From the NCBI GenBank assembly GCA_038880555.1, contig JAVZRN010000002.1, forward strand, positions 124,001-188,000: a stretch of 64,000 bases of DNA. Direction: 5' to 3'. Below are positions 27,317 through 49,576 of the stretch, piece after piece. Position 1 is the stretch's first letter, and each line of letters begins with the position of its first letter. The notes beneath the pieces were generated by a model. The model was not told the origin of the DNA. It worked only from the letters and a program-made list of their open reading frames with translations, and did no database searches. This DNA is from Candidatus Bathyarchaeia archaeon. GTDB taxonomy: Archaea; Thermoproteota; Bathyarchaeia; Bathyarchaeales; Bathycorpusculaceae. The position numbers and the translations under genes were made by a program.

Positions 27317-30300
27317 ATGAAAAGCAAAACATTGGCAGTAGCAATGATTCTAATAATTTTCCTAAGTTCTACGGCGATATTGGTTCCGATTAAATCGTCG
27401 AAAGCCAACAGATCTGTAATACGTGTATTATTTGATCAGGATGTCGCTTGGGCGCATGTCAATGTTGAAGAGTACGTCGACTTTATCAAGTGGACTATTG
27501 ATTTAAATGAAAATAGCGCCTATCTAAATAACCCCGTTGCCGGAATCGTTGTAATAATAGGCCTAGGCAGTGAAATTAAATTCCAAATACATAATAATGA
27601 CGGAATCGACCCTCACTATTCATATGGAACATGGCTGATCAGTTACTATGAAAATGGATGGCGTACTGGCAGCCCATATTATGCGAATTATCCATTGCCA
27701 GATGGCATAACTGCCACTGGCGGTAGAAGCAAAAGCGAAAATCCACAGATGGTTTTCACGGTTACTATAGATAAGTCTTACTTGTCAAATGAGTTTAAGT
27801 GGGCTGTTTACTTCAAAGGCGGCAGTGGTGGCAGAACCTTTTTCCCTCCAGACTTCTCATGGTACGATACAGACACCAGTGACATGGCTACTGCCAAATA
27901 TCTTATTCTAGGCGGCGCTGTTGCCACGCTGGCCAAAGCTGTCGGGACCAACGCGCAATTTTATTGGGGAAGTGGATGCTGGGCTGCAGTTTTGGGACAG
28001 AAATTCGAAATATACATTGACCCAACGCTTCCTCCATTCGACGCTCTAGGCGCTTTCAAAATAGATGATATAGCCAGCATATCATACCACACTAATACTC
28101 CACATCCAATTACCGGCACAACTCCACATAACTTCTACATAATAATATACACAAAGCCTGACGGTATTGATGATCACGGCTGGTATGGATACAAACTAAT
28201 CGGTGAACCATACTTCTCCAAAAACCTTAACGCTCCGGCTAATCAATGGAATAGGTGGAGTACAGATGCGGATACAAACCAGCTTACCTTCTTTGACCCA
28301 GACACCATAGGCTTTTACGGGTTCTATGGCCAACCAACGCTTCAAGACATCCAAGCCGGCCCAATAAACTGGCACAACTATTATTCTGGATGCCCTGAAA
28401 CAAATATCGACTACGGAGTTGAAGTTGTAAAGTACATTTCTTTCCAAACAGCAACCGGTTGGATGAACGTTTTTCAAGGCTGCATAGACGCAATAACCAT
28501 AGCATTAAAAGATGGAACAACGGTCTCAATTGACCTTGAAGGTTTTGCAAGCGAGGTATGGGTGGATGACGACTGGGCTAGCTTGCCTCCAGGCTACGAG
28601 GTTGAACCGGGCAAATTTATAGGTTATAATGCTTTCGCAAAAATACAAGATGGAATCAATGCGGTACTCGCTGAGGGCGTGGTGCATGTATATCCCGGAG
28701 AATACGTGGAACAGTTGGTTATCAACAAAAACTTAAGCCTAGAAGGGATGACCGGAGCTAAAATAGTGGCTCCAGACATTCGAAGTACGTTTACAATTCC
28801 AGAGTCTAGTGCTGTATTTGATCCAATAATATTTGCTTATGGTTCTTTAAGCGGAACCGAAACAATCAGTGTAACCATTAAAGGTTTTGAAATAGACGGC
28901 GGGAATAAAGCTGCCAGCAGCTATCGCTATGTTGGAATATTATGCCGCAATATTAAGTCTGGCACCGTATCAAACTGTGTCATTTATAGCATGTACCCGC
29001 CCTCTGGAAAAGGAAGCGGTCCTCAAACATTTGGCATTCTAGTCTACGGAGATTCAGAAGCAACTATCGAATACAACGAAGTCCGGGACTTTAGCCGCGG
29101 CGGCATAGGCGTTTTAGGCGATGCTGGTCCAAATGTTGATCCACACGCTATTGTCCAAGAGAACACTGTTTTTGGAAATGGTTTTGAACCGGAAACTGGA
29201 TGGTGGGCTGAAAACGGCATACAAATAGCATATGGCGCAACTGCACATGTTTTAGGCAACGATGTTTTCAATTGCACCGTCAACAATCCATACTGGTCGG
29301 CAACCGGAATACTTGTCGTTGACACAAGCGATGTGATTGTTGAAAACAACTATGTTGAAGGCTGCGACATTGGCATAAGCGCCGCAGACTTCCCCGGATC
29401 AATTTATGGGTCTCCATGGGATTATCACGCCTTGTCAAATGTCCTCATCAAGGGCAACACGCTCTTTAATAATACATGGCAAGTGGACATATCAAATGAT
29501 GCGAAAAATGTCACACTCATCTGCAACAACATATTAAATGCTGTAGAAGACGGAATAGATGTGTGGAGCTATCCAAACGCTGGAGTCGCACCAACAGACA
29601 TTAAGATTAATTATAACAACATCATAGGCAGCGGCACATATGGTTTATGGGTAAGTGAAGACGTGACAGAACCTGTTGACGCACGCTATAACTGGTGGGG
29701 TGACCCGACGGGGCCATACCACCCAACATTAAACCCAACAGGATTAGGAGACGAAGTGAGCGGCAACGCCAACTTCAAGCCATGGCTACTAACAGAAAAA
29801 GTTCCACCACTAGTTCATGATGTCGCTATATTGGATGTTGTCCCCTCAGCTATCAGAGTGGTGTCCGGGGCAACAATACAAGTTAACGTGAAAGTTAAAA
29901 ACGAGGGGAACACCTATGAAACCTTTAATGTTTCGCTATACTATGACGGCAACATGATAGACACATATACAATAATTGACATGATTCCAGGGTCAACCGA
30001 AACGCTGACGTTTAGTTGGGATACTTCTGGAGTACCCTACGGCACCTACACATTGAAAGCCGAAGCAACCGTAGTTCCTGGAGAGACAGACACAGAAGAC
30101 AACGTTTTTGTCGATGGGATAGTGAGAATCGGACCTGAAGCCATAATCAAGGTTGAGCCACCATTGTACGAAGCCCAGCTACTAAACAAGACATTCCAGG
30201 TTAACGTGACCATCAACAACCTATGGGAAGGCTGGAGGGCTATATTTGTCCAATTCAGACTTCTTTACAACCGAACGCTTCTGCAAGTTGTTGATATTGC

Positions 30301-30823
30301 CGAGGGAACTTTTATGAGGCAAGCCGGAGAAACGTTCTTGGTTTATTATGATGAGTATCATCCACGCTACGGGTGGAACGTTGTTGTTGGTATTTTACTT
30401 CTACCAAACGCTACGGGTTATTGGAATACTTTCCCAAGCGGAAGCGGCGTTCTAGCGACTATAACGTTCAGAACAATTTATCAAGAACGAGGCTATAGTG
30501 TAATAGGAGGCTACATCAAACAACCATTAACATGCAACTTGACGCTGGCAAACACTCTGATACTTGACGAGGATGTAGAGGAGATACCGCACACTAAAGA
30601 AAGCGGATTATACAAAATTTACCCAACAAACATAGCGGATTTCAACTTCGATTACTACGTTGACGGCAAGGACATATCTATGGCTGCAAGGTCTTTCGGT
30701 TCCTATCCAGGTCATCCAAGATGGAATCCACAATTTGATATCAATGAAGACAAAACAGTAGACGGTAAAGATTTAACAATTGTGGCGCGCAACTTTGGCT
30801 GGACACCGACATACGACCCATAA
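27317..30823 (+). CDS. Secreted beta-helix/CARDB/cohesin-like/dockerin protein, 1168 aa
   Basis: Signal peptide (1-30), then about 380 residues of unrecognised domain. A right-handed beta-helix of NosD/pectate-lyase-like repeats follows (about 415-830), starting AKIQDGINAVLAEGVVHVYPGEYVE and ending in ARYNWWGDPTGP. A CARDB domain (about 834-945) comes next, then a cohesin-like domain (about 947-1095, FVQFRLLYNRTLLQVVDI and GSGVLATITF). A type I dockerin closes it (about 1112-1168) with loops DFNFDYYVDGKD and DINEDKTVDGKD. It should bind calcium and a partner cohesin outside the cell; whether the helix binds or cleaves polysaccharide is unknown, and no catalytic residues are identified. Confidence 0.85.
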   Translation: MKSKTLAVAMILIIFLSSTAILVPIKSSKANRSVIRVLFDQDVAWAHVNVEEYVDFIKWTIDLNENSAYLNNPVAGIVVIIGLGSEIKFQIHNNDGIDPHYSYGTWLISYYENGWRTGSPYYANYPLPDGITATGGRSKSENPQMVFTVTIDKSYLSNEFKWAVYFKGGSGGRTFFPPDFSWYDTDTSDMATAKYLILGGAVATLAKAVGTNAQFYWGSGCWAAVLGQKFEIYIDPTLPPFDALGAFKIDDIASISYHTNTPHPITGTTPHNFYIIIYTKPDGIDDHGWYGYKLIGEPYFSKNLNAPANQWNRWSTDADTNQLTFFDPDTIGFYGFYGQPTLQDIQAGPINWHNYYSGCPETNIDYGVEVVKYISFQTATGWMNVFQGCIDAITIALKDGTTVSIDLEGFASEVWVDDDWASLPPGYEVEPGKFIGYNAFAKIQDGINAVLAEGVVHVYPGEYVEQLVINKNLSLEGMTGAKIVAPDIRSTFTIPESSAVFDPIIFAYGSLSGTETISVTIKGFEIDGGNKAASSYRYVGILCRNIKSGTVSNCVIYSMYPPSGKGSGPQTFGILVYGDSEATIEYNEVRDFSRGGIGVLGDAGPNVDPHAIVQENTVFGNGFEPETGWWAENGIQIAYGATAHVLGNDVFNCTVNNPYWSATGILVVDTSDVIVENNYVEGCDIGISAADFPGSIYGSPWDYHALSNVLIKGNTLFNNTWQVDISNDAKNVTLICNNILNAVEDGIDVWSYPNAGVAPTDIKINYNNIIGSGTYGLWVSEDVTEPVDARYNWWGDPTGPYHPTLNPTGLGDEVSGNANFKPWLLTEKVPPLVHDVAILDVVPSAIRVVSGATIQVNVKVKNEGNTYETFNVSLYYDGNMIDTYTIIDMIPGSTETLTFSWDTSGVPYGTYTLKAEATVVPGETDTEDNVFVDGIVRIGPEAIIKVEPPLYEAQLLNKTFQVNVTINNLWEGWRAIFVQFRLLYNRTLLQVVDIAEGTFMRQAGETFLVYYDEYHPRYGWNVVVGILLLPNATGYWNTFPSGSGVLATITFRTIYQERGYSVIGGYIKQPLTCNLTLANTLILDEDVEEIPHTKESGLYKIYPTNIADFNFDYYVDGKDISMAARSFGSYPGHPRWNPQFDINEDKTVDGKDLTIVARNFGWTPTYDP

Positions 30824-34241: not shown

Positions 34242-34291
34242 CTGCTTACCTTTTAGAAGTATTGCGGAAAAGGTTAAAGGGGAGAAAGAAA

Positions 34292-36499
34292 ATGGATAAG
34301 CGAATACTTATAGCTGCAGCGTTGGGTATGCTGATGGTCTTTTCGACGTTCGCTTCTGCAAGCGCTATGCCACCAATAAATGAGAAGATGCACCTTATAG
34401 TTGCTACCATCGAAGGTGCACCACCTGAAACTGTTGACCCTGCATGGTGCTATGATACGGCAAGCGCAGAACTAATATTCAACGTTTATGACACGTTGGT
34501 AACTTTTGATGGAGAACACATGGACGTCTATCTGCCGTCAATAGCAACAGAATGGAAGATTGAGAATATTACTGGCACGGTTAGCCCGGAAGGTCTACCT
34601 TGGTATTTCAGGTACACATTTAAAATTAGGACAGGTGTAAAGTTCTACAACCTCTCAGGCGAAGTCGATACACTTACGCCAGAGGATGTTGAGTACAGCT
34701 TTGAAAGGGCTATGGTTCAGGATAGGGATTCTGGCCCGGTGTGGATGCTTTATGAGCCTTTGCTGAACACTTGGGGCGCCTTCGGACTGTTGTCACCAGA
34801 GTATGGTGGGGAGGGCGAATATGATGCTGTGACTGTTGGCAAGATGATTGATCACGCTGTTGAGTCAAACGCCACCCACGTATGGTTTAACTTGGCCTTT
34901 CCAGGTGCATATCTGCCTTTCATGCAGATTCTCGCCCAGTCATGGTCCAGCATAATGAGCAAGGAATGGATAATCAGCCTTGGCAGGAATGACTGGAACG
35001 GAGAATGGGGTGATTACACGGACTGGATAAACTACCACAACCCAGAACTGTCGCCACTAGACGACCCAGCCCAAGGCGGCCCAGCGATGTGCGGCACAGG
35101 CCCATTCATACTCGAAACACTCTCATACACAGACGAGTATTGGACGGTGGTCCGAAACACCAACTATTGGCGCGGCTGGCCAGCAGACTTTCCAAAGCTT
35201 GGTGCAACAAAGCCAGCAGGCTATGTTGATAGGCTAACTGTAACATGGCACTACACATGGGAAGCTAGGCGTGACATGTTCTTAAACGGACAAATTGACT
35301 TCTGCGCCGTGCCAAGAATGTACCTGGGTGAAATGTACCTAGACACGGCAAAGACAAAGCTGAAGCCAGGGATAAGATGCATATACCCACTGCCCATACT
35401 GGCAGTGGACGGCGTATTCTTTACATTCAACGTTACAACGGCCTCACCATATGGCAAAGTTTATCCATGGGGTTCAGGCTTCCACAGGGATGGCATACCA
35501 GCAGACTTCTTCGGCAACCCAGACTGGGGTATACACGTTAGAAAGGGATTTGCCTACGCCTTCGACTACAACAGATTCCTACAAGAAGCCTACCTAGGTG
35601 AGGCAATAGCACCAGCAACAGCCATTATTCCAGGCTTGCCATGCTATGATCCAACAGTCAAAGGCTACACATATGACATTAACAAGGCTTTCCAAGAATT
35701 TAGCCAAGTTCCAGGACTACTTACTACAGGTTTCTCGATAGTATTAGTGTACAACACTGGAAACATTCCAAGGCAGAAGGCCTGCGAAATAATTAGAGAC
35801 GGTCTCGAAGCAATAGACACATTAGAAGGCCCAGAAGACAAAATCACGGTAACCATAACCAACGTAGATTGGAGGACCTATCTAAGGGCATGTCTCTACC
35901 ATCAAGCGGCGCTCTTTGTCATAGGGTGGCTGGCTGACTATCCAGACCCCCACAACTTCGCCTTCGCCTTCTACTACAGCCACGGAGCCTTCGGCGCATG
36001 GCAACTGTACCACAACCCAGTAATGGACGAGCTAATCGAGGAAGCTATTGCCACTCCCGACTGGCCGACAAGATGCGCACTATACCGTCAAATAGCATTA
36101 TTAGCAGTCCAAGACTGCCCAAGCTTCCCAATAGACCAAGCCATTGGCAGACACTTCGAGCGTTCATGGGTTGTAGGCTGGTACTACAACCCAATCTATC
36201 CAGGCGTTTACGCCTACAACCTCTGGAAATGGTACTACATACCCCACGCCCTACAAGACACAACACCAGAACACCCAATAAACAACCACCTACCCTACGA
36301 CGTCAACTATGACGGCACAGTCGACGGCAAAGACATAGCAGTAGCCTCAAAAGCCTTCGGCTCAGACCCAGGCCCACCAGTCCACCCAAGATGGTGCTAC
36401 AGAGCAGACGTCAACAACGACAGAATCTGCGACGGCAAAGACCTATCCCTCATCAGCAGAAACTTCGGAAAAACAAGCCCAGTATGGACTCCTACGTAA
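34292..36499 (+). CDS. Peptide-type ABC solute-binding protein (SBP_bac_5) with C-terminal dockerin
   Basis: About 735 residues. Signal peptide (MDKRILIAAALGMLMVFSTF...), no lipobox cysteine and no C-terminal membrane helix. The body is a family 5 solute-binding protein (Dpp/Opp): VDPAWCYDTASAELIFNVYDTL, VEYSFERAM, GTGPFILET, VRKGFAYAFDYNRF and IGWLADYPDPHNF. Residues about 675-735 form a type I dockerin with loops DVNYDGTVDGKD and DVNNDRICDGKD. ATG 34292, with AAAGGGGAG 7 bp upstream, is preferred over TTG 34262. The dockerin probably replaces a membrane anchor by docking to a cohesin-bearing surface protein. Confidence 0.9.
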   Translation: MDKRILIAAALGMLMVFSTFASASAMPPINEKMHLIVATIEGAPPETVDPAWCYDTASAELIFNVYDTLVTFDGEHMDVYLPSIATEWKIENITGTVSPEGLPWYFRYTFKIRTGVKFYNLSGEVDTLTPEDVEYSFERAMVQDRDSGPVWMLYEPLLNTWGAFGLLSPEYGGEGEYDAVTVGKMIDHAVESNATHVWFNLAFPGAYLPFMQILAQSWSSIMSKEWIISLGRNDWNGEWGDYTDWINYHNPELSPLDDPAQGGPAMCGTGPFILETLSYTDEYWTVVRNTNYWRGWPADFPKLGATKPAGYVDRLTVTWHYTWEARRDMFLNGQIDFCAVPRMYLGEMYLDTAKTKLKPGIRCIYPLPILAVDGVFFTFNVTTASPYGKVYPWGSGFHRDGIPADFFGNPDWGIHVRKGFAYAFDYNRFLQEAYLGEAIAPATAIIPGLPCYDPTVKGYTYDINKAFQEFSQVPGLLTTGFSIVLVYNTGNIPRQKACEIIRDGLEAIDTLEGPEDKITVTITNVDWRTYLRACLYHQAALFVIGWLADYPDPHNFAFAFYYSHGAFGAWQLYHNPVMDELIEEAIATPDWPTRCALYRQIALLAVQDCPSFPIDQAIGRHFERSWVVGWYYNPIYPGVYAYNLWKWYYIPHALQDTTPEHPINNHLPYDVNYDGTVDGKDIAVASKAFGSDPGPPVHPRWCYRADVNNDRICDGKDLSLISRNFGKTSPVWTPT

Positions 36500-36582: not shown

Positions 36583-37629
36583 ATGACATCTCTTCCAGCA
36601 TACATTGCAAGGAGACTCATACTCCTAATATTCGTGATATTGGGCGTCACAATTTTAATATTTGCAATAACAATGCTTGTCCCAATCGAAATAAGGGCAA
36701 TGCTATATGTAAGAAACGTCCAACACACCTCTCCTGACCAGCTGAGGAGCATTGCAAAAAGATACGGACTTGACAGACCTTTCTACGAGCAATACTTCAC
36801 ATGGCTCAGCCAAGTGCTTCAAGGTAACCTTGGATTTGCAAAATTCTCACAGCAATCAGTTGCAGACGCAATTCTTGAAAGATGGCCCTACACCTTCGAA
36901 ATAGTCCTTTTCGCCGCTCCGTTAATTATCTTTATCGGAATATTTTTAGGCGTCCAATCCGCTATACATAAAGACGGAATGATAGATCACGCTTGCAGAA
37001 TCCTATCTATAATCGGCTGGTCCCTCCCGTCCTTCTGGCTTGGGCTTCTTCTGCTCTCAGTATTCTCCGGGTACTTACGCTGGGTCTCACCCGGTCCATT
37101 AGATATAAATCTGCAACAATTTAGAAACGATCCCAAATCTGGATTTGTGCGGTACACTAAAATCGACTTGATTGACGGTCTCCTAAACGGACGGCCAGAC
37201 ATAACCTTAAACGTAATTCAACACGCCATACTGCCCGTAACAGTGATAGTAATCATTAACATTGCATTACTAATTAGAGTTATGCGCTCATCGATGCTGG
37301 AAGCCCTCAATAAACCATACACAACAGCGGCAAGGGCGAAAGGGTTAGATGAGAAAACAGTCATATATAAACATGCAAGAAGAAACGCTCTAATACCAGT
37401 CGTCACCCTTTCGGGAATGCTGGTGGCAGGGCTTTTAGGTGGGCTTGTAATAACCGAAACAGTTTTCGGGTTCGGCGGACTAGGACAATGGGCTGCAAAC
37501 GCAGCTATACAACTTGATGTTCCAGCAGTTTTAGGATACGCAATGCTAAGCGCGTTCCTTTTTGTTATTGCAAACTTAATTGTTGACATCCTATACGCCT
37601 ACATTGACCCAAGAATAAGGCTGGTGTAG
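36583..37629 (+). CDS. Peptide-type ABC transporter permease (DppB/OppB)
   Basis: A 348-residue permease: first helix LILLIFVILGVTILIFAI, then the DppB-type periplasmic loop (YGLDRPFYEQYFTWL and GNLGFA). Five further helices include the EAA loop (TTAARAKGLDEKTVIYKHARRN) and GGLVITETVFGFGGLG. It pairs with DppC to import oligo- or dipeptides, or oligosaccharides in some archaea. The downstream DppC gene begins 4 bp after its stop. Confidence 0.93.
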   Translation: MTSLPAYIARRLILLIFVILGVTILIFAITMLVPIEIRAMLYVRNVQHTSPDQLRSIAKRYGLDRPFYEQYFTWLSQVLQGNLGFAKFSQQSVADAILERWPYTFEIVLFAAPLIIFIGIFLGVQSAIHKDGMIDHACRILSIIGWSLPSFWLGLLLLSVFSGYLRWVSPGPLDINLQQFRNDPKSGFVRYTKIDLIDGLLNGRPDITLNVIQHAILPVTVIVIINIALLIRVMRSSMLEALNKPYTTAARAKGLDEKTVIYKHARRNALIPVVTLSGMLVAGLLGGLVITETVFGFGGLGQWAANAAIQLDVPAVLGYAMLSAFLFVIANLIVDILYAYIDPRIRLV

Positions 37630-37632
37630 AAT

Positions 37633-38748
37633 TTGAATTTAAGTGTGAAGTGGGAAGAAATCAAAGCTTCATGGAGGCCACGAATAAAAGAATGGAAATT
37701 TATGCTTAAAAGAATCAGTGAATCACCACTGGCAATCATTGGCATCGCAATAATATTGGGTTTTGTTATAATTGCGTGCCTTGCTCCAGTACTTGCTCCT
37801 CCCTACTTTAACGAAAACCCATTCATACTTAAGCCTGACGTAGAAATTTCCGTTTTAACTCCAGAACCTATACCGCCTACCATCAACCACATTTTCGGGA
37901 CTACCGCTGAAAAATACGACATTTACTACGCGTGCATATGGGGCACAATAAACGCCTTCCGCGTAGGCTTAATCGTTGTAGTTATAGCACTTGTCATAGG
38001 AGTAGTCTTAGGCACAACAGCCGCCTATTACGGCGGCATGATCGATGAACTATTAATGCGATTCACAGACATAATAATCGCTTTGCCAGGGCTAGTGCTT
38101 GCAATGGCACTTGTAATAGCTTTCCCGACGGTAATTCCCATGGACGTAACACTCACGATACTCGTGATTTCAGCTGTCATATCAGTATTTTTTGCGGCAT
38201 TTAAGCCGGAGCGAAAATTTCTTCTGCCTAGCCAAATAATTTTACTTGTATCTCTTTACCTTTACCTAACCAATCCCATAATTATAGGATTAAATTTGTC
38301 TAGACTAGACAAGGTTCTCATATCCCTAGCAATAGTAGGGTGGCCCGGCTACGCAAGACTCATCCGTGGCGAAGTTCTCAGAGTTAAAAACGAGGATTAC
38401 GTCGAAGCCGCAAAAGCTTCAGGCTGCTCAGACTTAAGGATAATAATAAAGCATATTTTACCAAATACGGTTTACCCCTTACTAATAGTTGTAACACTTG
38501 ACATAGGCTCAATAGTTCTAACAGCAGCAGCATTAAGCTTCCTTGGAATAGGCGCTGAACCCAACTTTGCTGATTGGGGCAACATAATCAGTATGAGTAG
38601 AGTTTGGGTTAGCTCTCCTGAAAATCTTGTGCGGTACTACCACACGTTTCTAATACCTGGCATATTCATAAGTTTATTCGTTCTAGGATGGAACCTTCTA
38701 GGGGATGCCCTTCGAGACGTTCTCGATCCCATGATAAGGAGGCGCTAA
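37633..38748 (+). CDS. Peptide-type ABC transporter permease (DppC/OppC), with insertion
   Basis: A 371-residue permease. The N-terminal OppC helix, HIFGTTAEKYD, ALPGLVLAMALVIA, WPGYARLIRGEVL, EAAKASGCSDLRIIIKHILPN and FLGIGAEPNFADWG match the family. Between the TDIIIALPGL helix and the WPGYARL segment are about 60 extra hydrophobic residues (including a KPERKFLLPSQ loop) not present in ordinary DppC, probably adding one or two membrane segments. It starts at TTG 37633, 3 bp after dppB. Confidence 0.92.
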   Translation: MNLSVKWEEIKASWRPRIKEWKFMLKRISESPLAIIGIAIILGFVIIACLAPVLAPPYFNENPFILKPDVEISVLTPEPIPPTINHIFGTTAEKYDIYYACIWGTINAFRVGLIVVVIALVIGVVLGTTAAYYGGMIDELLMRFTDIIIALPGLVLAMALVIAFPTVIPMDVTLTILVISAVISVFFAAFKPERKFLLPSQIILLVSLYLYLTNPIIIGLNLSRLDKVLISLAIVGWPGYARLIRGEVLRVKNEDYVEAAKASGCSDLRIIIKHILPNTVYPLLIVVTLDIGSIVLTAAALSFLGIGAEPNFADWGNIISMSRVWVSSPENLVRYYHTFLIPGIFISLFVLGWNLLGDALRDVLDPMIRRR

Positions 38749-38750
38749 AC

Positions 38751-39872
38751 TTGACTGAAGAAGCCCTTGTAGCAGTCAAAAATCTTGTGGTAAGATTCTA
38801 CACATACGCTGGAATAGTTGAAGCACTAGACGGTGTCAACCTTAAAATAAAGCCAGGCGAAATACTTGGACTAGTTGGAGAAACAGGTTGCGGCAAAAGC
38901 GTTACAAGCTTTTCAATATTACAGCTTGTACCACCACCTGGAAAAATTGAAGAAGGAGAGATACACCTTAAGAGGGACGGCAAAATCATAAACATAAGTG
39001 GTCTCCGCAAAGACACAATAAGACAAATACGCGGAAAAGACATAGCTATGATCTTTCAAGAACCTAGAGCCTACTTAAACCCAGTATACACAGTCGAAAC
39101 ACAAATTGGAGAAGCCTTGCTAACACATAGAAAAAATGAATTCCTTCAAAAAGCCATACAAGCCCTTGAGAAGTCAGGTAAAAGTTCAAATTTTGAAAAG
39201 AAAGTTTATGAGCGAATGTTAAAGAAACCTAAGTCGCCTATAACAAAAATCATGGCTAAATTCTGCCGAAAAAAAACCCTAAAGGCTGAAGTAAGTAAGG
39301 AGGTTGTCAATCTCCTAAGAAGTGTTGAGATTGCAGATCCTGAAAGAGTAGCAAAGATGTATCCTTTCGAATTAAGCGGGGGAATGGCTCAGAGGGCCGT
39401 AATAGCCATGGCCCTTTCATGTCAGCCTTTAGTACTTATAGCAGACGAGCCAACAACAAACTTGGACGTGACAGTTCAAGCTCAAATACTAAATCTCATC
39501 AGAGAGTTAAGAAAGACTTTCAAATCCTCCATCCTTTACATAACCCATGATTTGGGAGTTATAGCTGAACTCTGTGACAGAGTAGCTGTTATGTACGCTG
39601 GAAACGTCGTTGAAACCGCAGATGTCTATGAACTTTTCGAGGCTCCGCTTCATCCCTACACTAAAGCCTTATTAGAATCGATTCCAAGACCAGGCGAAGA
39701 GTTTAAGTCTATTCCAGGAACTGTTCCGAGCCTTATAAATCCGCCGAAAGGATGCCGTTTTCATGATAGATGCCGATATGAAATGGACATATGCAAGAAG
39801 GTTAAGCCTGCTTTCATAGAAGTTAAGAAGGACCACTTTGTTGCATGTCATCTTTACGGAGGCTCCAAATGA
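38751..39872 (+). CDS. Peptide-type ABC transporter ATPase (DppD/OppD)
   Basis: 373 residues with Walker A GETGCGKS, Q-loop MIFQEPRAYLNP, signature ELSGGMAQR, Walker B LIADEPTTNLD and H-switch ITHDLGV. The C-terminal OppD extension contains four cysteines (CRFHDRCRYEMDIC, then ACHLYG), often an iron-sulfur site. TTG 38751 is preferred over an upstream ATG inside dppC because GGAGG at 38738-38742 lies just before it and the spacing to the dppC stop is only 2 bp. Confidence 0.93.
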   Translation: MTEEALVAVKNLVVRFYTYAGIVEALDGVNLKIKPGEILGLVGETGCGKSVTSFSILQLVPPPGKIEEGEIHLKRDGKIINISGLRKDTIRQIRGKDIAMIFQEPRAYLNPVYTVETQIGEALLTHRKNEFLQKAIQALEKSGKSSNFEKKVYERMLKKPKSPITKIMAKFCRKKTLKAEVSKEVVNLLRSVEIADPERVAKMYPFELSGGMAQRAVIAMALSCQPLVLIADEPTTNLDVTVQAQILNLIRELRKTFKSSILYITHDLGVIAELCDRVAVMYAGNVVETADVYELFEAPLHPYTKALLESIPRPGEEFKSIPGTVPSLINPPKGCRFHDRCRYEMDICKKVKPAFIEVKKDHFVACHLYGGSK

Positions 39873-40921
39873 ATAGCATAATTATAGTTAGGAATCTAAA
39901 AAAACATTACCCAATACTTGGTGGTGTGTTTAAGCGTAGGGTAGCTTCTGTAAAGGCTGTTGACGGTGTTTCATTAAACATTTTTAAGGGTGAAACCTTC
40001 GGCTTAGTTGGCGAGTCTGGCTGTGGGAAGACAACTCTTGGCAAAACGATTTTGAGGCTTCTCAAACCCGATGCTGGCAATATATTTTTTGATGTTCCTG
40101 AACGTGTTATTGACGAGATAATAGAGTTAGAGAGGACTAACCCCAAATCAAAAAGACTTAAACTTTTGAGGACACAATATGATATTGCCACTTTCTCCGG
40201 CGAAAAATTGTTGAGACTTAGAAGGCACATGCAAATCGTCTATCAGGATCCAACAACTTCGCTTGATCCAAGAATGCTTGTTAAAGATATTGTTGCTGAG
40301 CCTCTTGTTGCACAGGGTATAGCTAAGGGTGAAGAGGCGAGAAAACTTGTTGTTGACATTTTAAATAAGGTTGGTTTGGGTGAGCAGCATCTTTACAGGT
40401 TTCCCCACGAGTTTAGCGGTGGGCAGAGGCAGAGAATAGCCATAGCCAGAGCTCTTGTTTGTAGACCGGAATTTGTTGTGCTTGATGAGCCTACATCTTC
40501 GGTGGATGTTTCCGTCCGAGCTCAGCTTCTTAATCTCTTTAAAGATTTGCAGAAAGAGCTTGACTTAACATACATGTTTATCAGCCACGATTTAAGCATA
40601 GTTGAGTGTATAAGCGATAGAGTTGCAATAATGTATCTTGGAAAGATTAATGAGCTTGCCCCTACATATAAAATCTTCAAGAATCCTATACACCCATACT
40701 CACAAGCGCTAATAGCTTCTGTGCCCATTCCAGACCCAAAAAAGCGAAGGGAACGGGCACCCTTAGCCGGCGAGGTTCCAAGTCCGGTTAATCCTCCAGC
40801 CGGATGCCGTTTTCATCCCAGATGTCCCCTTGTGATGGATGTTTGTAGGAGAGAGGAGCCACAGTTGTTTGAAGTTGAGAAGGATCATTATGTTGCTTGT
40901 TTCGCTGTTGCTAGACGGTGA
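39869..40921 (+). CDS. Peptide-type ABC transporter ATPase (DppF/OppF)
   Basis: 350 residues with Walker A GESGCGKTT, signature FSGGQRQR, Walker B VLDEPTSSVD and H-switch ISHDLSI. The C-terminal Cys-rich OppF extension (CRFHPRCPLVMDVC, then ACFA) is present. ATG 39869 overlaps the previous stop as ATGA and has GGAGG at 39858-39862. About 45 residues are inserted between Walker A and the Q-loop compared with usual OppF (the VIDEIIELERTNPKSK region). The stop is 6 bp before the membrane-anchored cohesin gene. Confidence 0.93.
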   Translation: MNSIIIVRNLKKHYPILGGVFKRRVASVKAVDGVSLNIFKGETFGLVGESGCGKTTLGKTILRLLKPDAGNIFFDVPERVIDEIIELERTNPKSKRLKLLRTQYDIATFSGEKLLRLRRHMQIVYQDPTTSLDPRMLVKDIVAEPLVAQGIAKGEEARKLVVDILNKVGLGEQHLYRFPHEFSGGQRQRIAIARALVCRPEFVVLDEPTSSVDVSVRAQLLNLFKDLQKELDLTYMFISHDLSIVECISDRVAIMYLGKINELAPTYKIFKNPIHPYSQALIASVPIPDPKKRRERAPLAGEVPSPVNPPAGCRFHPRCPLVMDVCRREEPQLFEVEKDHYVACFAVARR

Positions 40922-40927
40922 TGAAAT

Positions 40928-41995
40928 ATGGTCGGTTTTATTAATTATTTAAAGAAAAAATCCGTGACCTACATAATATTATCTACGGTGTTGGTAACTC
41001 AATTTTTCATTATGGTTCCATTGTCAAATGCTCAGGAGGGTGCTCAAATGCTAATTGAGCCTGAAACTCTTTCGCTTAGGGTTGGCGATAACTTTACAAT
41101 AACCATTATCGCAAGGAATCTTGAAACTCTTTATTCATGGCAGGTTTTCTTGAAATTTAATGCTTCAGTGGTGAACTGTACAGAAACTGATGTTTGGATT
41201 CCCCCAGACAACGTTTTTTCAGGACATAGGGCAAATCCAACAGATGTAATTTTCCGTAAGGATGTTGTCGACGGCTTAGATGGCATGGGATTATCTTGCT
41301 CTCTTCAAGGTGACGACTATGTAAGTGTTAGTGAAGGGGTCTTGTTTAAAGTAAACTTCACAGTTAAAGCTGTTGGATCTACGGTAATAAAAATTGCCAC
41401 AAAGGATGATCCGGTGAAGACCGGGCAGTTCTATACGTTTTACTCGTGGTTTTGTGATTACTATCTAGAGGAGGTTCCATTCTCATCTAGTTATTGTATT
41501 GTAGTGGTGGAGGGATCCGTTGTTAATCTGCCTCCTGTCGTCCGTCTTGTTGTCACGGTTCCCGAGGTTGACACAAGTAAGTATCTCGTGTTAAGGGGAC
41601 ACACTCCTACTGAGGCGCTTCCTTATACGTTTGCTTTTAAGGGGTATCCTGTGATTTTTAATGCGTCAATTTCTATAGATCCTGATGGGAATATAACTAG
41701 TTATTTGTGGGATTTCGGGGATGGGAATGTAACTGAGACTAGTGGACCTATTGTTGTTCATGTTTATGGTTCTACTGGTAAGTATTACGTACTTTTGACT
41801 GTTTTTGATGATGGTGATCCTCCAATGAATTCAACTTACCGATTTATTGTTGTTGTTGGTTTGCTTCTTGAGCTTTTTGATTGGAGTCCTGCTCTTTATG
41901 GTTTGGGAGTTGTCATTGCCGTTGCTGTTGTTGTTTCTGTTGTTAGAAGGGTTAGAAATTATTTGAAGTTTAGGAGTAAATTTAGAAGCCGTTAA
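40928..41995 (+). CDS. Membrane-anchored cohesin-like / PKD protein
   Basis: 355 residues. Signal peptide (about 1-36), a cohesin-like beta-sandwich (about 38-190: LRVGDNFTITI, YSWQVFLKFN, VFSGH, GVLFKVNFTV), a PKD domain (about 205-305: SIDPDGNITSYLWDFGDGN), and a C-terminal membrane helix (LYGLGVVIAVAVVVSVV) with a basic cytoplasmic tail. It should display a dockerin receptor on the outer face of the membrane. It begins 6 bp after dppF with GGTGAT as ribosome-binding site, so it belongs to the transporter operon. It is the best candidate receptor for the dockerin of the binding protein. Confidence 0.85.
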   Translation: MVGFINYLKKKSVTYIILSTVLVTQFFIMVPLSNAQEGAQMLIEPETLSLRVGDNFTITIIARNLETLYSWQVFLKFNASVVNCTETDVWIPPDNVFSGHRANPTDVIFRKDVVDGLDGMGLSCSLQGDDYVSVSEGVLFKVNFTVKAVGSTVIKIATKDDPVKTGQFYTFYSWFCDYYLEEVPFSSSYCIVVVEGSVVNLPPVVRLVVTVPEVDTSKYLVLRGHTPTEALPYTFAFKGYPVIFNASISIDPDGNITSYLWDFGDGNVTETSGPIVVHVYGSTGKYYVLLTVFDDGDPPMNSTYRFIVVVGLLLELFDWSPALYGLGVVIAVAVVVSVVRRVRNYLKFRSKFRSR

Positions 41996-42038: not shown

Positions 42039-42048
42039 AAAGTTTAAA
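42039..42048 (+). promoter_or_regulatory. TATA box of the triple cohesin-like gene
   Basis: AGTTTAAATG lies about 55 bp upstream of ATG 42099. An ATG at 42048 falls within this element, which argues against it as a start. Confidence 0.5.
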
Positions 42049-42098
42049 TGTGGTTCTGTACTAATTGTCATTTGCTGAAAGGTGAGGGGAGAAGAAAA

Positions 42099-44429
42099 AT
42101 GAGAAAGGCTTTAGCAACTATTCTAGTGGCTTTGATGCTATTGGCCGCTTTACCGCCGTTTCTACTAAAGCCGGCTTATGCCCAAGTTGAGAATGCGATG
42201 TGGATTGAACCAGCTGCATTAAACTTTGGAACCGACACAGTTTCTCCAGGCGACAAATTCAATGTGAGTATAAAGGTTTGGGTGACAGCGGACAACATGT
42301 TTGCTTGGCAGTTCCGATTAATTTTTGATCCAACGCAATTAAAGGCAACGAGGGCTGGCTATAAGCCTGGACCTGCAAACAGTGAATGGGCTAGCTATAG
42401 AACTGGCGGCGCAGTAGCTACTGTAACCCCGGACATAGGGGCAAACTATGTGCTATTCACTGAGTCTTGCCAAGGTGACAACTATGTGCCGAAGAACACG
42501 CCTCCAGTCTATTTGGCTTGGGTTGAGTTTGAGATTGTGGCGGCTCCACCGATGGGTGGAGAACTAACAAGCGCTTTGAGCATAGATCACCCGCAGACAT
42601 GGGTTATGAATCCTAGCATGGAGGAGATTTCAATTCAGAAGATTGGGGCAACTTATAGGTATTACTGGGTTGCTCCTCCAAGGCCGAAGCTGGCTGTCGA
42701 CCCGTCCTATAGGGAGTACGGTCCATACCCACCATCAGTTATTGGAACAGAGTTTGACGAAAACATAATAATCAAGGGATTAAGCGCTGCATGGTTCTTG
42801 AAGAATGCTTCAACATGGCTGGCCTACGACCCAGACTTGCTTGTTGTTGTGGGCGTAACATTTGGCCCTGCATGGACATATACGGAGTTTGACAATTCAA
42901 CTGCTGGAGACCTGTACCTGTTTGCTGAAACAACAACTCCGCCAAGCGGGGATGTGCTACTAGCCACGGTTAGATTTAAGATAATATTCCAGGACACGGC
43001 CCCACCGAGAACACCAGGCGAGTATGATGAGTCGCCGTTAAACCTACATGACTACCACTTGTTCGCAGAGCCAATAGAAATACAGACCATGCCAGAAATC
43101 GATGGAAAAGTTAGAATATACTGCCTCATAACCCTGCCAGTGCCATACCTGGAAGTATCAAGTCACGTTATGAGTGTTTGCGCTGAAGGAGACGAATTTA
43201 ACGTGACAGTTTCACTGAAGAACCTCGACAGCCACTGGTACCTAGTCGCAATACAATTCAGATTAAAGTATCCAGCCGACCTAATCGAACCAGTAGCATG
43301 TTACGAAGGGCCATTCCTGCCAAGCTTCGCAGCCCTACAACCCGACAGCCTAGGAACCTTCTGCGTTTCATACTTTGAAGACTGGCCACCATACGGACCC
43401 CACGTCCTCTATGGCGAACTCATATATCCAAACGCAAGCGGATGGTGGAATGAACCATTCCCAGAAGGCAGCGGAGTAGTTGCAATAATAACCTTCAAAG
43501 TGAAATACGCGCCCTACCCAGATGAAGGAACCATAACAGCCCCACTTGAAATTGTCTGGCAAGGCGCTGTCGGATTAGACGGTCCATCAACTCAAAACAT
43601 TGTTGACGTACCACTTGCCAACCCAGTAAACGGAACCTACACAATAACACCATACTTTGCTGGAAGACGCATTGACCTATATGGAGGTGCAATAAACAGC
43701 GGATATGGTACAACCCACGGGTTAACGTACGGCCCTGGCATATTCTGGCCAGCACCATACGGTGGTCAAGGACCTAACAAACCAATGGATTTAGTAATAG
43801 ATCAATCATTAGTATGGCTCTTCGCAAACGTTACATATCACGGCTGGCCAGTACAGGCCAAACGGGTAAACTTCGAAGTATTAATGCCCGACGGTACAAC
43901 CTATACAAAGCTTAGTGCAGTCACAGATTCCAACGGAGTTGCATGTGTAAGCTTCAGAATGCCATGGCCATGTGACAATCCAGAAGGCCTCTTTGGAAAA
44001 TGGAAAGTAATAGCCACATGCAGTCTAGCAGACGAGGTGATAAATGACACTATGGAATTCCACTACGACTATCTAGTCCACATATGGAAAGTCACAACAA
44101 ACAAGTACTACTACAACCATACGGAAAAGGTAATCATAACGATAGAGTATGGATCTCACGCCATGCAAACATACCCAGTGCTGTTCACAGCCATAATACA
44201 AGACGAATTAGGAGTTACCATCGGCTTAGCCACAATAAACACAACAGTTGGCGGAGCCAAATTCTGTACATACAAGAACGACATACAAACACTGTCGATA
44301 GAAATTCCGAAATGGGCATTTGCAGGAATCGCAAAGGTTCGTGTTAATGCATTTGACAAAGAGCCGGCTGAAGGTGGATTTAACTGGTGTCCAGAGGCAA
44401 CAACGAAAATCTGCATACTACCAGCATAA
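42099..44429 (+). CDS. Secreted protein with three cohesin-like domains and C-terminal Ig-like domains
   Basis: 776 residues. Signal peptide (about 1-28), cohesin-like domain 1 (about 34-185: MWIEP, FNVSIKV, WQFRLIFDP, TESCQGDNYVP), domain 2 (about 195-345) and domain 3 (about 348-515: FNVTVSLKN, IQFRLKYPA, GSGVVAIITF). About 260 residues of beta-sandwich or macroglobulin-like repeats (VNFEVLMPDGTTYTK, VIITIEYG) follow. It has no dockerin and no membrane helix, so it may act as a free scaffold. ATG 42099 has GGTGAGGGGAG 8-18 bp upstream. Confidence 0.8.
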   Translation: MRKALATILVALMLLAALPPFLLKPAYAQVENAMWIEPAALNFGTDTVSPGDKFNVSIKVWVTADNMFAWQFRLIFDPTQLKATRAGYKPGPANSEWASYRTGGAVATVTPDIGANYVLFTESCQGDNYVPKNTPPVYLAWVEFEIVAAPPMGGELTSALSIDHPQTWVMNPSMEEISIQKIGATYRYYWVAPPRPKLAVDPSYREYGPYPPSVIGTEFDENIIIKGLSAAWFLKNASTWLAYDPDLLVVVGVTFGPAWTYTEFDNSTAGDLYLFAETTTPPSGDVLLATVRFKIIFQDTAPPRTPGEYDESPLNLHDYHLFAEPIEIQTMPEIDGKVRIYCLITLPVPYLEVSSHVMSVCAEGDEFNVTVSLKNLDSHWYLVAIQFRLKYPADLIEPVACYEGPFLPSFAALQPDSLGTFCVSYFEDWPPYGPHVLYGELIYPNASGWWNEPFPEGSGVVAIITFKVKYAPYPDEGTITAPLEIVWQGAVGLDGPSTQNIVDVPLANPVNGTYTITPYFAGRRIDLYGGAINSGYGTTHGLTYGPGIFWPAPYGGQGPNKPMDLVIDQSLVWLFANVTYHGWPVQAKRVNFEVLMPDGTTYTKLSAVTDSNGVACVSFRMPWPCDNPEGLFGKWKVIATCSLADEVINDTMEFHYDYLVHIWKVTTNKYYYNHTEKVIITIEYGSHAMQTYPVLFTAIIQDELGVTIGLATINTTVGGAKFCTYKNDIQTLSIEIPKWAFAGIAKVRVNAFDKEPAEGGFNWCPEATTKICILPA
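42578..42605 (+). repeat. 28-bp segment identical to 50196-50223
   Basis: The sequence encoding the SIDHPQTWV region of cohesin domain 1 is identical over 28 bp to the anchored cohesin gene at 49678 (50196-50223), indicating recent duplication or gene conversion. Confidence 0.7.
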
Positions 44430-44599: not shown

Positions 44600-45595
44600 T
44601 TGAAGGAACATACACTCTTAACAGCATTAACATCAACAATGCTTCTCCTGCTTCTATGCTGCCCGCTAATACCGACATCAGAATCAGCAACATTAACCCT
44701 TAATCTAATGCCGAACAAGCAAAAATACAACGTGGGAGAACAAGTAAACCTTGTCGGAAACCTCACGCAAGACGGTGCCCTAGTATCCGATGCTCTAATA
44801 TCCCTCGAAATCAATAACCCCAAAAACGAGCTATTCATAATCAGAGCCTTCACAACAGGCCAACCCCTACAAGGCCCCTTACCAGTTGAAATAACAAGCC
44901 TAATACCATGCGACGCGGGCGGAAACCCAAAATACACCTTCATCAGAGGAGACACAATGGGATTTAAAGTAACCTTCAAAAACAACATGGCATCATCCTG
45001 CCAAGTAATCATAACAATAAACATGTTCTACAACAACGGCGTACCCTTCAAAGCCTTCATCGCATACAACGGCTCAATAGACGCCGGAAGAACAATCACC
45101 TTCACAATATGGCCAATACTAATACCATCAGACGCCCAAGCAGGCACAGCAGTAGCCTATGCCGCCCCATTTAACAAATTACCAACCAATGGCGGTTTAG
45201 CCTACTCCCCAGAAAAAAACGCAACCTTCAACATACTATCAACATCAACAATAAAGGAAACAGTCAAAGTAAACAGCGGAAAATTCAACATAACCTTCCC
45301 ACTGACATCCATACCAATAATGCTTGGCAATTACACCGCCTACGCAGTAACCTTCTACAACTACCGCCTAGCCTCAGCAACATGCACCTTCAACGTAATG
45401 CTGATAGGGGACATAAACAATGATGGAACCATAGATGGCAAGGACATAAGCATCGTCTGTAAAGCCTTCGGCGCAACACCCGAAAGCCCAAGATGGAACC
45501 CCAAAGCAGACCTAAACTCCGACGGCATAATCGACGGCAAAGACATAAGCATCGTCTGTAAAGCCTTCGGAATAACAGTCATAGTAGACCCATAA
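44600..45595 (+). CDS. Secreted dockerin protein, 331 aa
   Basis: Signal peptide (about 1-30), then two to three beta-sandwich domains of unrecognised family (about 32-265: KQKYNVGEQVNLVGNLTQDG, TMGFKVTFKN). A type I dockerin closes the protein (about 270-331), with two nearly identical loops (DINNDGTIDGKD and DLNSDGIIDGKD), each followed by ISIVCKAFG. It starts at TTG 44600 with AAAGGGGAG at 44586-44594. It is presumed to be a cargo or adaptor of the cohesin scaffold; no enzymatic motif was seen. Confidence 0.8.
   Translation: MKEHTLLTALTSTMLLLLLCCPLIPTSESATLTLNLMPNKQKYNVGEQVNLVGNLTQDGALVSDALISLEINNPKNELFIIRAFTTGQPLQGPLPVEITSLIPCDAGGNPKYTFIRGDTMGFKVTFKNNMASSCQVIITINMFYNNGVPFKAFIAYNGSIDAGRTITFTIWPILIPSDAQAGTAVAYAAPFNKLPTNGGLAYSPEKNATFNILSTSTIKETVKVNSGKFNITFPLTSIPIMLGNYTAYAVTFYNYRLASATCTFNVMLIGDINNDGTIDGKDISIVCKAFGATPESPRWNPKADLNSDGIIDGKDISIVCKAFGITVIVDP
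45443..45570 (+). repeat. Dockerin internal repeat (29-bp identical units)
   Basis: A 29-bp sequence encoding the ISIVCKAFG part of the dockerin loop helix occurs exactly twice (45443-45471 and 45542-45570) with a 99-bp period, which keeps the reading frame. Confidence 0.8.
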
Positions 45596-45660: not shown

Positions 45661-46689
45661 TTGGTCACACTCATGAAAACGCTTCAAAAAACCTTAAAGC
45701 TTACAATATTATTACTTTTAATCTTAGTGTTCCCAAAAATCGCACAATCAACAAACACCACTACTATTTCGACAAGCCCCACACAACTTCAACTAAACAC
45801 ACTCACTACATTCAACATAAACATCACAGTTTACAATGTAACAGACCTAAGCGCATGGCAGATAAAAATCTCCTTCAACCCAAACATAATTCAATGCATA
45901 AATGTCTCACTTCCCCAACAACACATTTTTTCAGGCCACAGCACAACAGGATTATCCTACATAATCGAAAACCAAAAAGGCTACATCCTAGCCTTCAACG
46001 GGCTATGGGAACCCACGGGAGTTAACGGCTCCGGCATACTCTGCCAGCTGACCATCCAAGCAATAAACATAGGAATGTCCAGCCTAACCTTCACCAGAAC
46101 AATGCAGATGGGCGGAACATATCTGGTAAACTCAAAAGACAACATGATTCCAATAGAAACAATTAATGGACTGATAACCATTGCGCCAAAAGGCTTCAAT
46201 CAATATCAATTCAACGTTCAAGTGGACATCCAAACATACACCGTCTTAATCCTAACAAACTCCTCATTAACAAACTTCAACTTCAACAACACCTCAAAGA
46301 AAATCGAATTTTCACTAAATGGACCTGACGGAACCAGCGGAGCATGCTCAATATCAATACCCAAAGGACTTCTAAACGGAGCATTCGCAATACTACTAAA
46401 CAACAAAGCCACAGCCTTCTCATCTTCAAACGATGAAATCAACAACTACCTATGCTTCACGTACCATCACAGCATAATTAACACCCAAATACTAATAACA
46501 ATACTTGGAGACATAAACGGCGACAGAACAATCGACGGTAAAGACATATCAATAGCCGCAAGAGCCTTCGGATCATACCCAAGTAGCCTAAGATGGAACC
46601 CGCTAGCCGACATAAACCAAGACCTCGAAGTCGACGGCAAAGATCTAGCATTAATAGCTAAAAAATTCGGACAAACGTGGAACCCCTAA
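45661..46689 (+). CDS. Secreted cohesin-like / beta-domain / dockerin protein
   Basis: Signal peptide (about 1-30), a cohesin-like domain (about 36-175: LSAWQIKISFNP, HIFSGH, GSGILCQLTI) and a beta domain (about 180-280) with GPDGTSG and a YHHS motif. A dockerin closes it (about 283-342: DINGDRTIDGKD, DINQDLEVDGKD). It resembles the surface protein at 21417 in the beta domain. Both TTG 45661 and ATG 45673 are possible starts; neither has a strong ribosome-binding site. It can in principle both receive and dock, which would allow chaining. Confidence 0.8.
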   Translation: MVTLMKTLQKTLKLTILLLLILVFPKIAQSTNTTTISTSPTQLQLNTLTTFNINITVYNVTDLSAWQIKISFNPNIIQCINVSLPQQHIFSGHSTTGLSYIIENQKGYILAFNGLWEPTGVNGSGILCQLTIQAINIGMSSLTFTRTMQMGGTYLVNSKDNMIPIETINGLITIAPKGFNQYQFNVQVDIQTYTVLILTNSSLTNFNFNNTSKKIEFSLNGPDGTSGACSISIPKGLLNGAFAILLNNKATAFSSSNDEINNYLCFTYHHSIINTQILITILGDINGDRTIDGKDISIAARAFGSYPSSLRWNPLADINQDLEVDGKDLALIAKKFGQTWNP

Positions 46690-47515: not shown

Positions 47516-49576
47516 TTGGGGAAGACACTGACCATCAATCTTTTACTACTATTAATAATTATGGCGTTACTGCCAATTTCAATGTCCCCGACAAAGGCAA
47601 ATCCAACAACAACCCTTAAAATTGTGCCCGACAGAATAGTAAACCCCTCAATTGCGCCAGGCTCCACAATAGCTATAAATGTCAGCGTAGTCGACGTATC
47701 ATACTTCTATTCGTGGCAAGTAAAAATATTTTTCAATCCAGCCGTGCTCAACTGCACTAACGTTGAAATCCCCTCAGACCACATATTCGCGGGCAGAATA
47801 TATGCAACCGTTACTCCAATAATCGACAACATCAAAGGCTATATAATGCATACCGCAACCCTAGTTGGCGAGCAATACGTCGACGGCAGCGGCACGTTAT
47901 GCAAAATAACCTTCAAAGTTATAAGCAAAGGTGTTTCTAACATTAACTTCTCCAGACCTTACGGCGATAAAACATACCTTTGGAACTATGACCTTGAACT
48001 AATAGACGCCGACATTATTGACGGATATTTTGCAAACGCTGTTCCTCCGACGGCAAACTTTGATTTCAGCCCTAAATCGCCAATAGTTAATGAAGAAGTC
48101 ACCTTTAACGCCTCCAAAAGTTACGATCCAGACGGCGCAATAGTTAGTTACAACTGGAACTTTGGAGACGGTGGAACAGCAACAGGGCAGATAGCAACCC
48201 ACAAATATGGCTCTCCAGGCACATACATAGTTTCCCTACAAGTCACCGACAGCGATGGTCTAATAGATATAGAAACAAAAGAAATAACCGTCTATGAATA
48301 CAGACCGGCAAGACTCTACGTAAATCCGCCTGAAATAGCCGACCCAACTTTGCTACCACCTTCTATTGTTAAAATAAATATAACGTTGGAAGGGGTCAGA
48401 GACATGTACGGCTATGAGTTCAAACTGGAATACAACACTGAAATGCTGACATGCGTAGGAGCAATAGTCCACATAATTCAAAATCAGATAAACTTCTCAC
48501 CAATAATTCTTATAAATGATCCAGCCGGTTTTGTACATGTTAATGTTACATATTATCCTCCATCAACCCCGATGGCAATAACCCAACCGGAAAATCTCGT
48601 CACCATATACTTCCTAATAAGTGGCATGGGATATAGCCAACTACATTTAAGCGACACAGAAGTAGTCGATGTTTACGGGAACTCCATTTCTCATCAAACA
48701 GAGGACGGTTTCATAATAACCTTAATACGGGATGTTGCTGTCACAGACGTTGCCCCTTCATCGTATTGGGCCTACCAAAACTGGACCATAAAAATATCAG
48801 TAACCGTGAAAAATATGGGGAACTTAAGCGAATCTTTTAATGTAAGAGTATATTATAACGATACGTTGATAGCTACGCGTCCAATAACTAATCTGCCCCC
48901 CGGTAACACATCCACGATTACGATAGACTGGAATACAACAGAGGTTGACGAAGGAGTTTACATAATAAAGGCTGAGGCCTCCCTTGTTCCATACGAGTAT
49001 AATGTTGAAAATAACATATTATATACGCGTCCCATTGTTATCTTCACTAAGATAAGAGACGTAGCAGTTAATTCCATTAGCCTATCAAGAAACTGGGCTT
49101 TTCCAGGTGTGACAATAAACATAATAGTTTCCGTTGAAAATTGCGGCGAATTCAACGAGTCTTTTGATGTCAGCATATATTATAACGATACGTTGATAGC
49201 TACGCAATCAGTTTCTGAACTGCCTGTTGGAGCCCAGCTTAACATATCGTTTACTTGGGACACTTCAGGTCTCCGCTCATGTAACAGCTACATAATAAAG
49301 GCTGAGGCATCATACATTCAGTATGAATATAATGTTACTAACAATGTCCTAATAGATGGAACTGTGAAAATCAGGATATTAGGCGATCTGGACGGCGACG
49401 GCGTCGTAGATGGAAGGGATATTTCAATAGTATCTAAGGCGTTCGGTGGTTATCCGGGCCATCCAAGATGGAATCCTGACGCTGATATAACAGGTTCGCA
49501 ATACCTTATTCCAGACGGACTTGTGGATGCCAAAGATTTGGCACTTGTTTGTAGAAACTATGGTAAAACATGCTAG
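47516..49576 (+). CDS. Secreted cohesin-like/PKD/cohesin-like/CARDB/CARDB/dockerin protein
   Basis: 686 residues. Signal peptide (about 1-29), cohesin-like domain 1 (33-175: YSWQVKIFFNP, HIFAGR, GTLCKITF), PKD (177-262), cohesin-like domain 2 (264-400: MYGYEFKLEYNTEMLTC). Two CARDB domains (404-508, 513-618) and a dockerin (621-686: DLDGDGVVDGRD and a second loop ending PDGLVDAKD) follow. TTG 47516 follows AAGGAGAGGG. Its architecture is that of an adaptor scaffold: two receptor-like modules and one plug. The second dockerin loop has an inserted QYLIP, an unusual variant. Confidence 0.82.
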   Translation: MGKTLTINLLLLLIIMALLPISMSPTKANPTTTLKIVPDRIVNPSIAPGSTIAINVSVVDVSYFYSWQVKIFFNPAVLNCTNVEIPSDHIFAGRIYATVTPIIDNIKGYIMHTATLVGEQYVDGSGTLCKITFKVISKGVSNINFSRPYGDKTYLWNYDLELIDADIIDGYFANAVPPTANFDFSPKSPIVNEEVTFNASKSYDPDGAIVSYNWNFGDGGTATGQIATHKYGSPGTYIVSLQVTDSDGLIDIETKEITVYEYRPARLYVNPPEIADPTLLPPSIVKINITLEGVRDMYGYEFKLEYNTEMLTCVGAIVHIIQNQINFSPIILINDPAGFVHVNVTYYPPSTPMAITQPENLVTIYFLISGMGYSQLHLSDTEVVDVYGNSISHQTEDGFIITLIRDVAVTDVAPSSYWAYQNWTIKISVTVKNMGNLSESFNVRVYYNDTLIATRPITNLPPGNTSTITIDWNTTEVDEGVYIIKAEASLVPYEYNVENNILYTRPIVIFTKIRDVAVNSISLSRNWAFPGVTINIIVSVENCGEFNESFDVSIYYNDTLIATQSVSELPVGAQLNISFTWDTSGLRSCNSYIIKAEASYIQYEYNVTNNVLIDGTVKIRILGDLDGDGVVDGRDISIVSKAFGGYPGHPRWNPDADITGSQYLIPDGLVDAKDLALVCRNYGKTC
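48849..49205 (+). repeat. CARDB internal duplication, 30-bp identical units
   Basis: Thirty identical bp encoding YYNDTLIAT occur at 48849-48878 and 49176-49205 (327-bp period), and an 18-bp match encoding IIKAEA follows in each. The two CARDB domains are a recent duplicate. Confidence 0.75.

Follow-up and report, generated by a model that had tools for sequence, protein, structure and literature searches.

The 64,000-nucleotide stretch of Candidatus Bathyarchaeia archaeon DNA analysed here (the window) encodes a solute-binding protein (SBP; 34292..36499, + strand) that is probably docked on membrane-anchored cohesins beside its permease, with a C-terminal dockerin replacing the anchor, a reading to which we assign a probability of about 0.75 on the strength of sequence comparisons. 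In the mechanism we propose, the Dpp/Opp-type receptor would be secreted unanchored, the dockerin would plug into cohesins held by C-terminal helices (encoded from 40928 and 49678) or into scaffoldins bound to these, and docking would hold the receptor at the membrane near the co-encoded permease. The dockerin would take the place of the helix or lipid that anchors related receptors, as a modular and in principle exchangeable part. We infer the cohesin–dockerin binding, the identity of the partners and the calcium dependence of docking. Docking is favoured because anchor types alternate on the tree of these receptors, the gene order is kept, and the specificity positions of the dockerins are matched within genomes.

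The receptor ORF (735 aa) starts with an ATG at 34292 that has GGGGAG upstream, and a longer form from a TTG at 34262 is possible. SBP_bac_5 (PF00496) covers residues 84–565 with E 8e-41, and a fold search with the predicted structure returned Dpp/Opp-type SBPs as top matches (best 6ofq, E 4e-34). Domain and fold, together with the Opp/Dpp/Nik-type permeases and ATPases of the operon, place the protein among the family 5 (cluster C) SBPs; it was the only SBP_bac_5 protein found in the source genome, and it presumably binds peptides or similar ligands. Residues 1–25 (34292..34366, + strand) form a cleavable-looking signal peptide, the cleavage site being placed by eye, and since no cysteine occurs within the first 45 residues the signal has no lipobox. 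A sequence scan detected no C-terminal helix, the N-terminal signal being the sole strongly hydrophobic segment. Both features agree with the original prediction, which had described a signal peptide without a lipobox cysteine and no C-terminal membrane helix, and a missed lipid or C-terminal helix anchor was ruled out at the sequence level. The AlphaFold2 model comprises a confident SBP, a disordered linker (residues 649–664) and a separate dockerin, whose ten-residue blocks mostly have pLDDT 83–93.

The dockerin occupies residues 668–726 (36293..36469, + strand) and has the two calcium-loop repeats of type I/II-like dockerins, loop 1 (DVNYDGTVDGKD, residues 670–681, 36299–36334) and loop 2 (DVNNDRICDGKD, residues 706–717, 36407–36442), with D1, N3, D5, D9 and D12 kept in both. 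The Pfam match (Dockerin_1, PF00404, residues 669–724) gave E 1e-4, exactly the curated cut-off; we attribute this weak score to the Pfam model, because a dockerin profile built on relatives matched with E 3e-24. The family profile also matched solved cellulosomal dockerins (2y3n_B, E 6e-15), and when the last 90 residues of the protein were shuffled 20,000 times, two such loops never arose. A chance match was ruled out by these three results, and the two-loop dockerin noticed earlier at this C-terminus is complete. Many SBP dockerins continue into a short end tail with a conserved Trp (TSPVWTPT, TSSVWAPP, SPVWVPP, SITWHL; 36470–36499 in the window), which is absent from the other dockerins of the SBP loci and is possibly a clasp or an additional contact.

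Downstream of the receptor gene, on the same strand, lie genes for two ABC permeases, B of the Opp/Dpp/Nik type (36583..37629; PF00528 and PF19300, NCBIfam Opp2B/NikB as best match, below cut-off) and C (37633..38748; PF00528 and PF12911), and for two ABC ATPases identified with NCBIfam, one OppD-like (38688..39872) and one DppF/OppF-like (39845..40921). Six bases 3' of the stop codon of the second ATPase starts the gene for a membrane-anchored cohesin (40928..41995, + strand), with a signal, a cohesin, a PKD domain and a C-terminal TM helix at residues 321–354. Pfam matched the PKD domain and scored the cohesin (PF00963, E 7e-5) just below its cut-off (23.4 vs 24.1 bits). A cohesin family profile reached PDB cohesins (E 2e-11), and a fold search with its model, which has pLDDT 56 as a whole and mostly 75–91 in the cohesin part, matched cohesins with E 1.5e-6; sequence and fold both identify a cohesin.

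Further cohesin and dockerin genes follow, all on the + strand. A scaffoldin (42048..44429) carries at least two cohesins (residues 68–166 and 381–486; PF00963 E 1e-12) and, by eye, a third cohesin-like stretch, and it has neither helix nor dockerin; counterparts of this anchorless protein occur at the same place in the genomes G028, G037 and G008. Next come a dockerin protein with cargo of no recognised kind (44600..45595; PF00404 E 8e-9), a cohesin and dockerin protein (45661..46689; PF00404 E 7e-6, cohesin by our own profile), a scaffoldin with two cohesins and a C-terminal dockerin (47516..49576; Pfam and own profile, by eye also PKD and CARDB-like stretches), and another membrane-anchored cohesin with a C-terminal TM helix (49678..50697; own profile and sequence), whose cohesin is 67% identical to the first of the 42048 scaffoldin. 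Upstream of the receptor, Pfam identified a beta-helix, CARDB, cohesin and dockerin protein (27317..30823, + strand). All five Pfam cohesin matches and five of the six dockerin matches of the source genome (1.75 Mb, 97% complete) fall within this cluster, from which it follows that its cohesin–dockerin machinery lies mostly around this transporter. We infer that the SBP, transporter and cohesin genes are co-transcribed; a promoter and terminator scan, with bacterial models only, gave counts not above those of shuffles.

SBP matches at a loose threshold were found in 18 of 151 near relatives, some of them distant or through the dockerin alone, and searches of the class and phylum followed. These homologues, which the original prediction had proposed to check for dockerins, do carry them: 11 orthologous SBPs from nine genomes have a dockerin and none of the 11 has a C-terminal helix, whereas the seven non-dockerin orthologues of the class have a C-terminal helix (4/7) or an N-terminal helix (the remaining three). 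Since the nine genomes belong to several families of the class, an oddity of one genome was ruled out. The proteins fall into three end types, namely signal plus dockerin, signal plus C-terminal helix and basic tail (G021, G142, G148 and one of the G008 SBPs), and N-terminal helix (G009, G175, G176 and the majority of phylum members). In a maximum-likelihood phylogeny built from the SBP core, dockerin and C-terminal helix forms alternate, and sister pairs of the two forms were recovered for G017/G021 and G031/G142 with 100% support and, more weakly, for G129/G148. In G017 a cohesin-helix gene lies directly 3' of the dockerin-SBP gene; in its sister G021 the SBP itself has the helix, and the 11.5 kb contig has no cohesin, cohesins being encoded elsewhere in that genome. 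To judge from the sequences, this pair is the clearest natural anchor swap. Most matches kept from a contig scan of named relatives were SBPs of bacteria or other archaea that lack a dockerin, and among these kept matches a dockerin was present in L084 (Bathyarchaeota DRTY-6_2_bin_115) alone; the closest named relative among them was Hecatellales B76_G16 (71–74% over a gene cut at the contig end).

The order SBP-dockerin, permeases, ATPases and cohesin genes is shared by the window, G028, G037, G008, G031 and G179. With shorter forms counted, cohesin genes lie near all eight dockerin-SBP operons with transporter genes and near none of the five others, and cohesins are present in 9/9 dockerin-SBP genomes vs 1/6 others; the groups in both comparisons are small, related and partly on short contigs, and the p-values take no account of kinship or short contigs and are hence optimistic. 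G179 represents a different family of the class and is a metagenome-assembled genome (estimated contamination 7%); a single cohesin was detected in it, encoded by the gene after the ATPases. Exceptions are the G032 dockerin-SBP and two extra ones of G008, for which the stretch read contains no transporter genes. Of these extra G008 proteins, one (L052:9853-12975) combines SBP, dockerin, cohesin and a second dockerin in one chain.

Positions 10 and 11 of the dockerin loops are established determinants of cohesin specificity (PMC8063739). When we ranked 56 columns of 49 dockerins from 14 genomes by how far agreement within genomes exceeded that between genomes, position 10 took both top places, in loop 1 and in loop 2 (within 0.65/0.60, between 0.15/0.12), and none of 300 label shuffles matched positions 10/11 taken jointly. 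At positions 10/11 an SBP dockerin is closer to the non-SBP dockerins encoded in its own genome (agreement 0.53) than to the SBP dockerins from other genomes (0.22); outside these positions the corresponding values, 0.47 and 0.42, are close. Four of the five dockerins of the window cluster, the SBP's included, have Gly-Lys in both loops, and the scaffoldin dockerin has GR/AK; elsewhere the code is Met-Lys (G028), mostly Met-Asp/Met-Gly (G037/G008) or mainly Val-Arg or Val-Lys (G032). The cohesins show a related pattern, the TM-anchored and first scaffoldin cohesins being most alike within one genome (homogenised) in the source genome (G000), G028, G031 and G129, with the 40928 cohesin closest to cohesins of other genomes (42%) and not to its homogenised neighbours. 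Dockerin code and cohesin homogenisation fit selection for one recognition surface per cell; recent duplication could partly explain the likeness of dockerins within genomes. The earlier view of the dockerin as an anchor substitute docking onto an anchored cohesin of the locus is supported, strongly if indirectly, by the homologues, the alternation of anchors, the gene order and the matched positions. As a candidate partner, 40928, whose cohesin that view proposed to assay, stands beside a second TM-anchored cohesin and several cohesins on scaffoldins.

Sixty dockerin proteins of relatives, picked by dockerin score, were scanned for domains. They included NosD/beta-helix (21 and 19 members) and CARDB (11) proteins, SBPs of the SBP_bac_5 (5), Peripla_BP_6 (3) and PnrA-like (1) types, and enzymes, namely subtilases (6), M14, M28, C13 and C39 peptidases (1 each) and penicillin amidases (2). 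Because Peripla_BP_6 and PnrA-like SBPs also carry dockerins, receptor docking would span more than one family. The three Peripla_BP_6 dockerin genes (L244, L245 and L246, in G001, G017 and G056) all adjoin two multi-helix permease-like genes, with ABC ATPase-like genes nearby in two of the three loci read; our reading is that these may be Liv-type importers, a second and unrelated importer type with docked receptors. Coupling of peptide breakdown to uptake is a plausible theme of these gene sets. More tentatively, and short of an even chance in our estimate, the class may share one socket system in which anchored cohesins and scaffoldins hold Dpp/Opp, Liv and PnrA receptors and secreted peptidases through the genome-specific dockerin code; if true, this would couple extracellular protein breakdown to uptake and make receptors exchangeable at one transporter. 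One G032 protein of 1435 aa (L185:595-4899) unites an SBP_bac_5 domain, NosD/beta-helix repeats and a dockerin.

Alternatively, the dockerin might recruit the SBP to a larger assembly of beta-helix, CARDB and PKD proteins and peptidases, located at the surface or associated with the S-layer and serving adhesion or peptide breakdown; its position near the permease would then be incidental or secondary. Many dockerin proteins of the relatives are indeed NosD/beta-helix, CARDB, PKD or peptidase proteins, a dockerin subtilase adjoins the dockerin-SBP of G032, and Chadwick et al. suggested dockerin–S-layer links in ANME archaea (PMC9012536). We nevertheless consider such an arrangement unlikely, as the cohesin genes lie within the transporter operon, two of those in the window encode membrane helices, and the C-terminus of the protein carries a dockerin in some orthologues and a membrane helix in others. 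Intact calcium positions, a genome-matched code and the accompanying cohesin genes make it very improbable that the dockerin is vestigial or a non-binding structural tail, with the SBP diffusing beneath the S-layer, even though some relatives have degraded dockerins (the G031 loops, G129). An uncleaved signal peptide could serve as an N-terminal anchor and leave the dockerin a different role, N-terminal anchors being common in related SBPs of the phylum and cleavage having been judged by eye. This we find scarcely credible: the dockerin-SBPs with a readable start show a short hydrophobic core, mostly followed by an Ala-x-Ala-type site (ASA, AFA, AEA, AYA, ALA), whereas the N-terminal helices are longer and lead into linkers.

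Docking on anchored cohesins, if true, would add a further tether for ABC receptors besides lipid and helix, one that is non-covalent, modular and possibly calcium-controlled. It would also provide a function for archaeal cohesins and dockerins outside the cellulosome, where what they do has been called unknown (PMC5244752). Recombinant domains would allow a direct test, since sister genes have swapped anchors and the specificity code can be read.

The original prediction called this mode of holding a binding protein new, which was overstated: Chadwick et al. (2022, PMC9012536) had described SBPs of the NikA/OppA and TroA types as common among the dockerin proteins of ANME archaea, and the SBP–dockerin combination is therefore already known. 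There, as here, SBPs with dockerins occur in archaea rich in cohesin proteins; the SBPs described here come from a different class of archaea and have cohesin genes alongside those of the transporter, and the present analysis adds the anchor comparison, operon linkage and specificity code. No description of anchor replacement, operon linkage or a genome-specific code was found in the open-access literature, and both the exchange of anchors and the linkage in one operon are apparently new. With the cellulosome of Clostridium thermocellum and relatives the locus shares dockerin cargo, multi-cohesin scaffoldins with a terminal dockerin and cell-anchored cohesins (47516, 42048, 40928 and 49678 providing scaffoldins with several cohesins and anchored cohesins). 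The locus differs from the cellulosome in its cargo, a nutrient receptor and, in relatives, peptidases as well, and in its anchoring by TM helices, and Pfam found no plant-polysaccharide hydrolase or cellulose-binding module among the scanned dockerin and cohesin proteins of the window. In the way it works it would resemble a small cellulosome with a nutrient receptor as cargo, but it is not a cellulosome. The receptor shares the core fold and the B, C, D, F operon with DppA/OppA family SBPs, but where these are free in the periplasm or anchored by lipid or a helix, it has a dockerin. AF2375/AF2376 of Archaeoglobus fulgidus is likewise a non-cellulosomal archaeal pair, and the 40928 model matches the A. 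fulgidus cohesin 2xdh (E 5e-5). We know of no transporter link for AF2375/AF2376. The A. fulgidus cohesin–dockerin pair binds strongly (PMC9705933).

Three further proteins deserve mention. One in the window (53823-54890, + strand), without a match in NCBIfam, is a membrane protein whose outer part is caspase/C25-like by eye (an ALGCQ-type GCQ after a hydrophobic strand). The sixth dockerin of the source genome lies between two TM helices in a 154 aa protein (G000:C3:40500-41800; L184:460-921, - strand); its 10/11 code differs (ML/DY), and it might hold the anchorless scaffoldin 42048. A 576 aa protein at 30944-32674 (+ strand) has a thioredoxin-like CxxC (CLYC) by eye, two CARDB domains (Pfam) and a C-terminal multi-helix region resembling a redox domain of the DsbD/CcdA type, which would make it an uncommon redox fusion at the surface.
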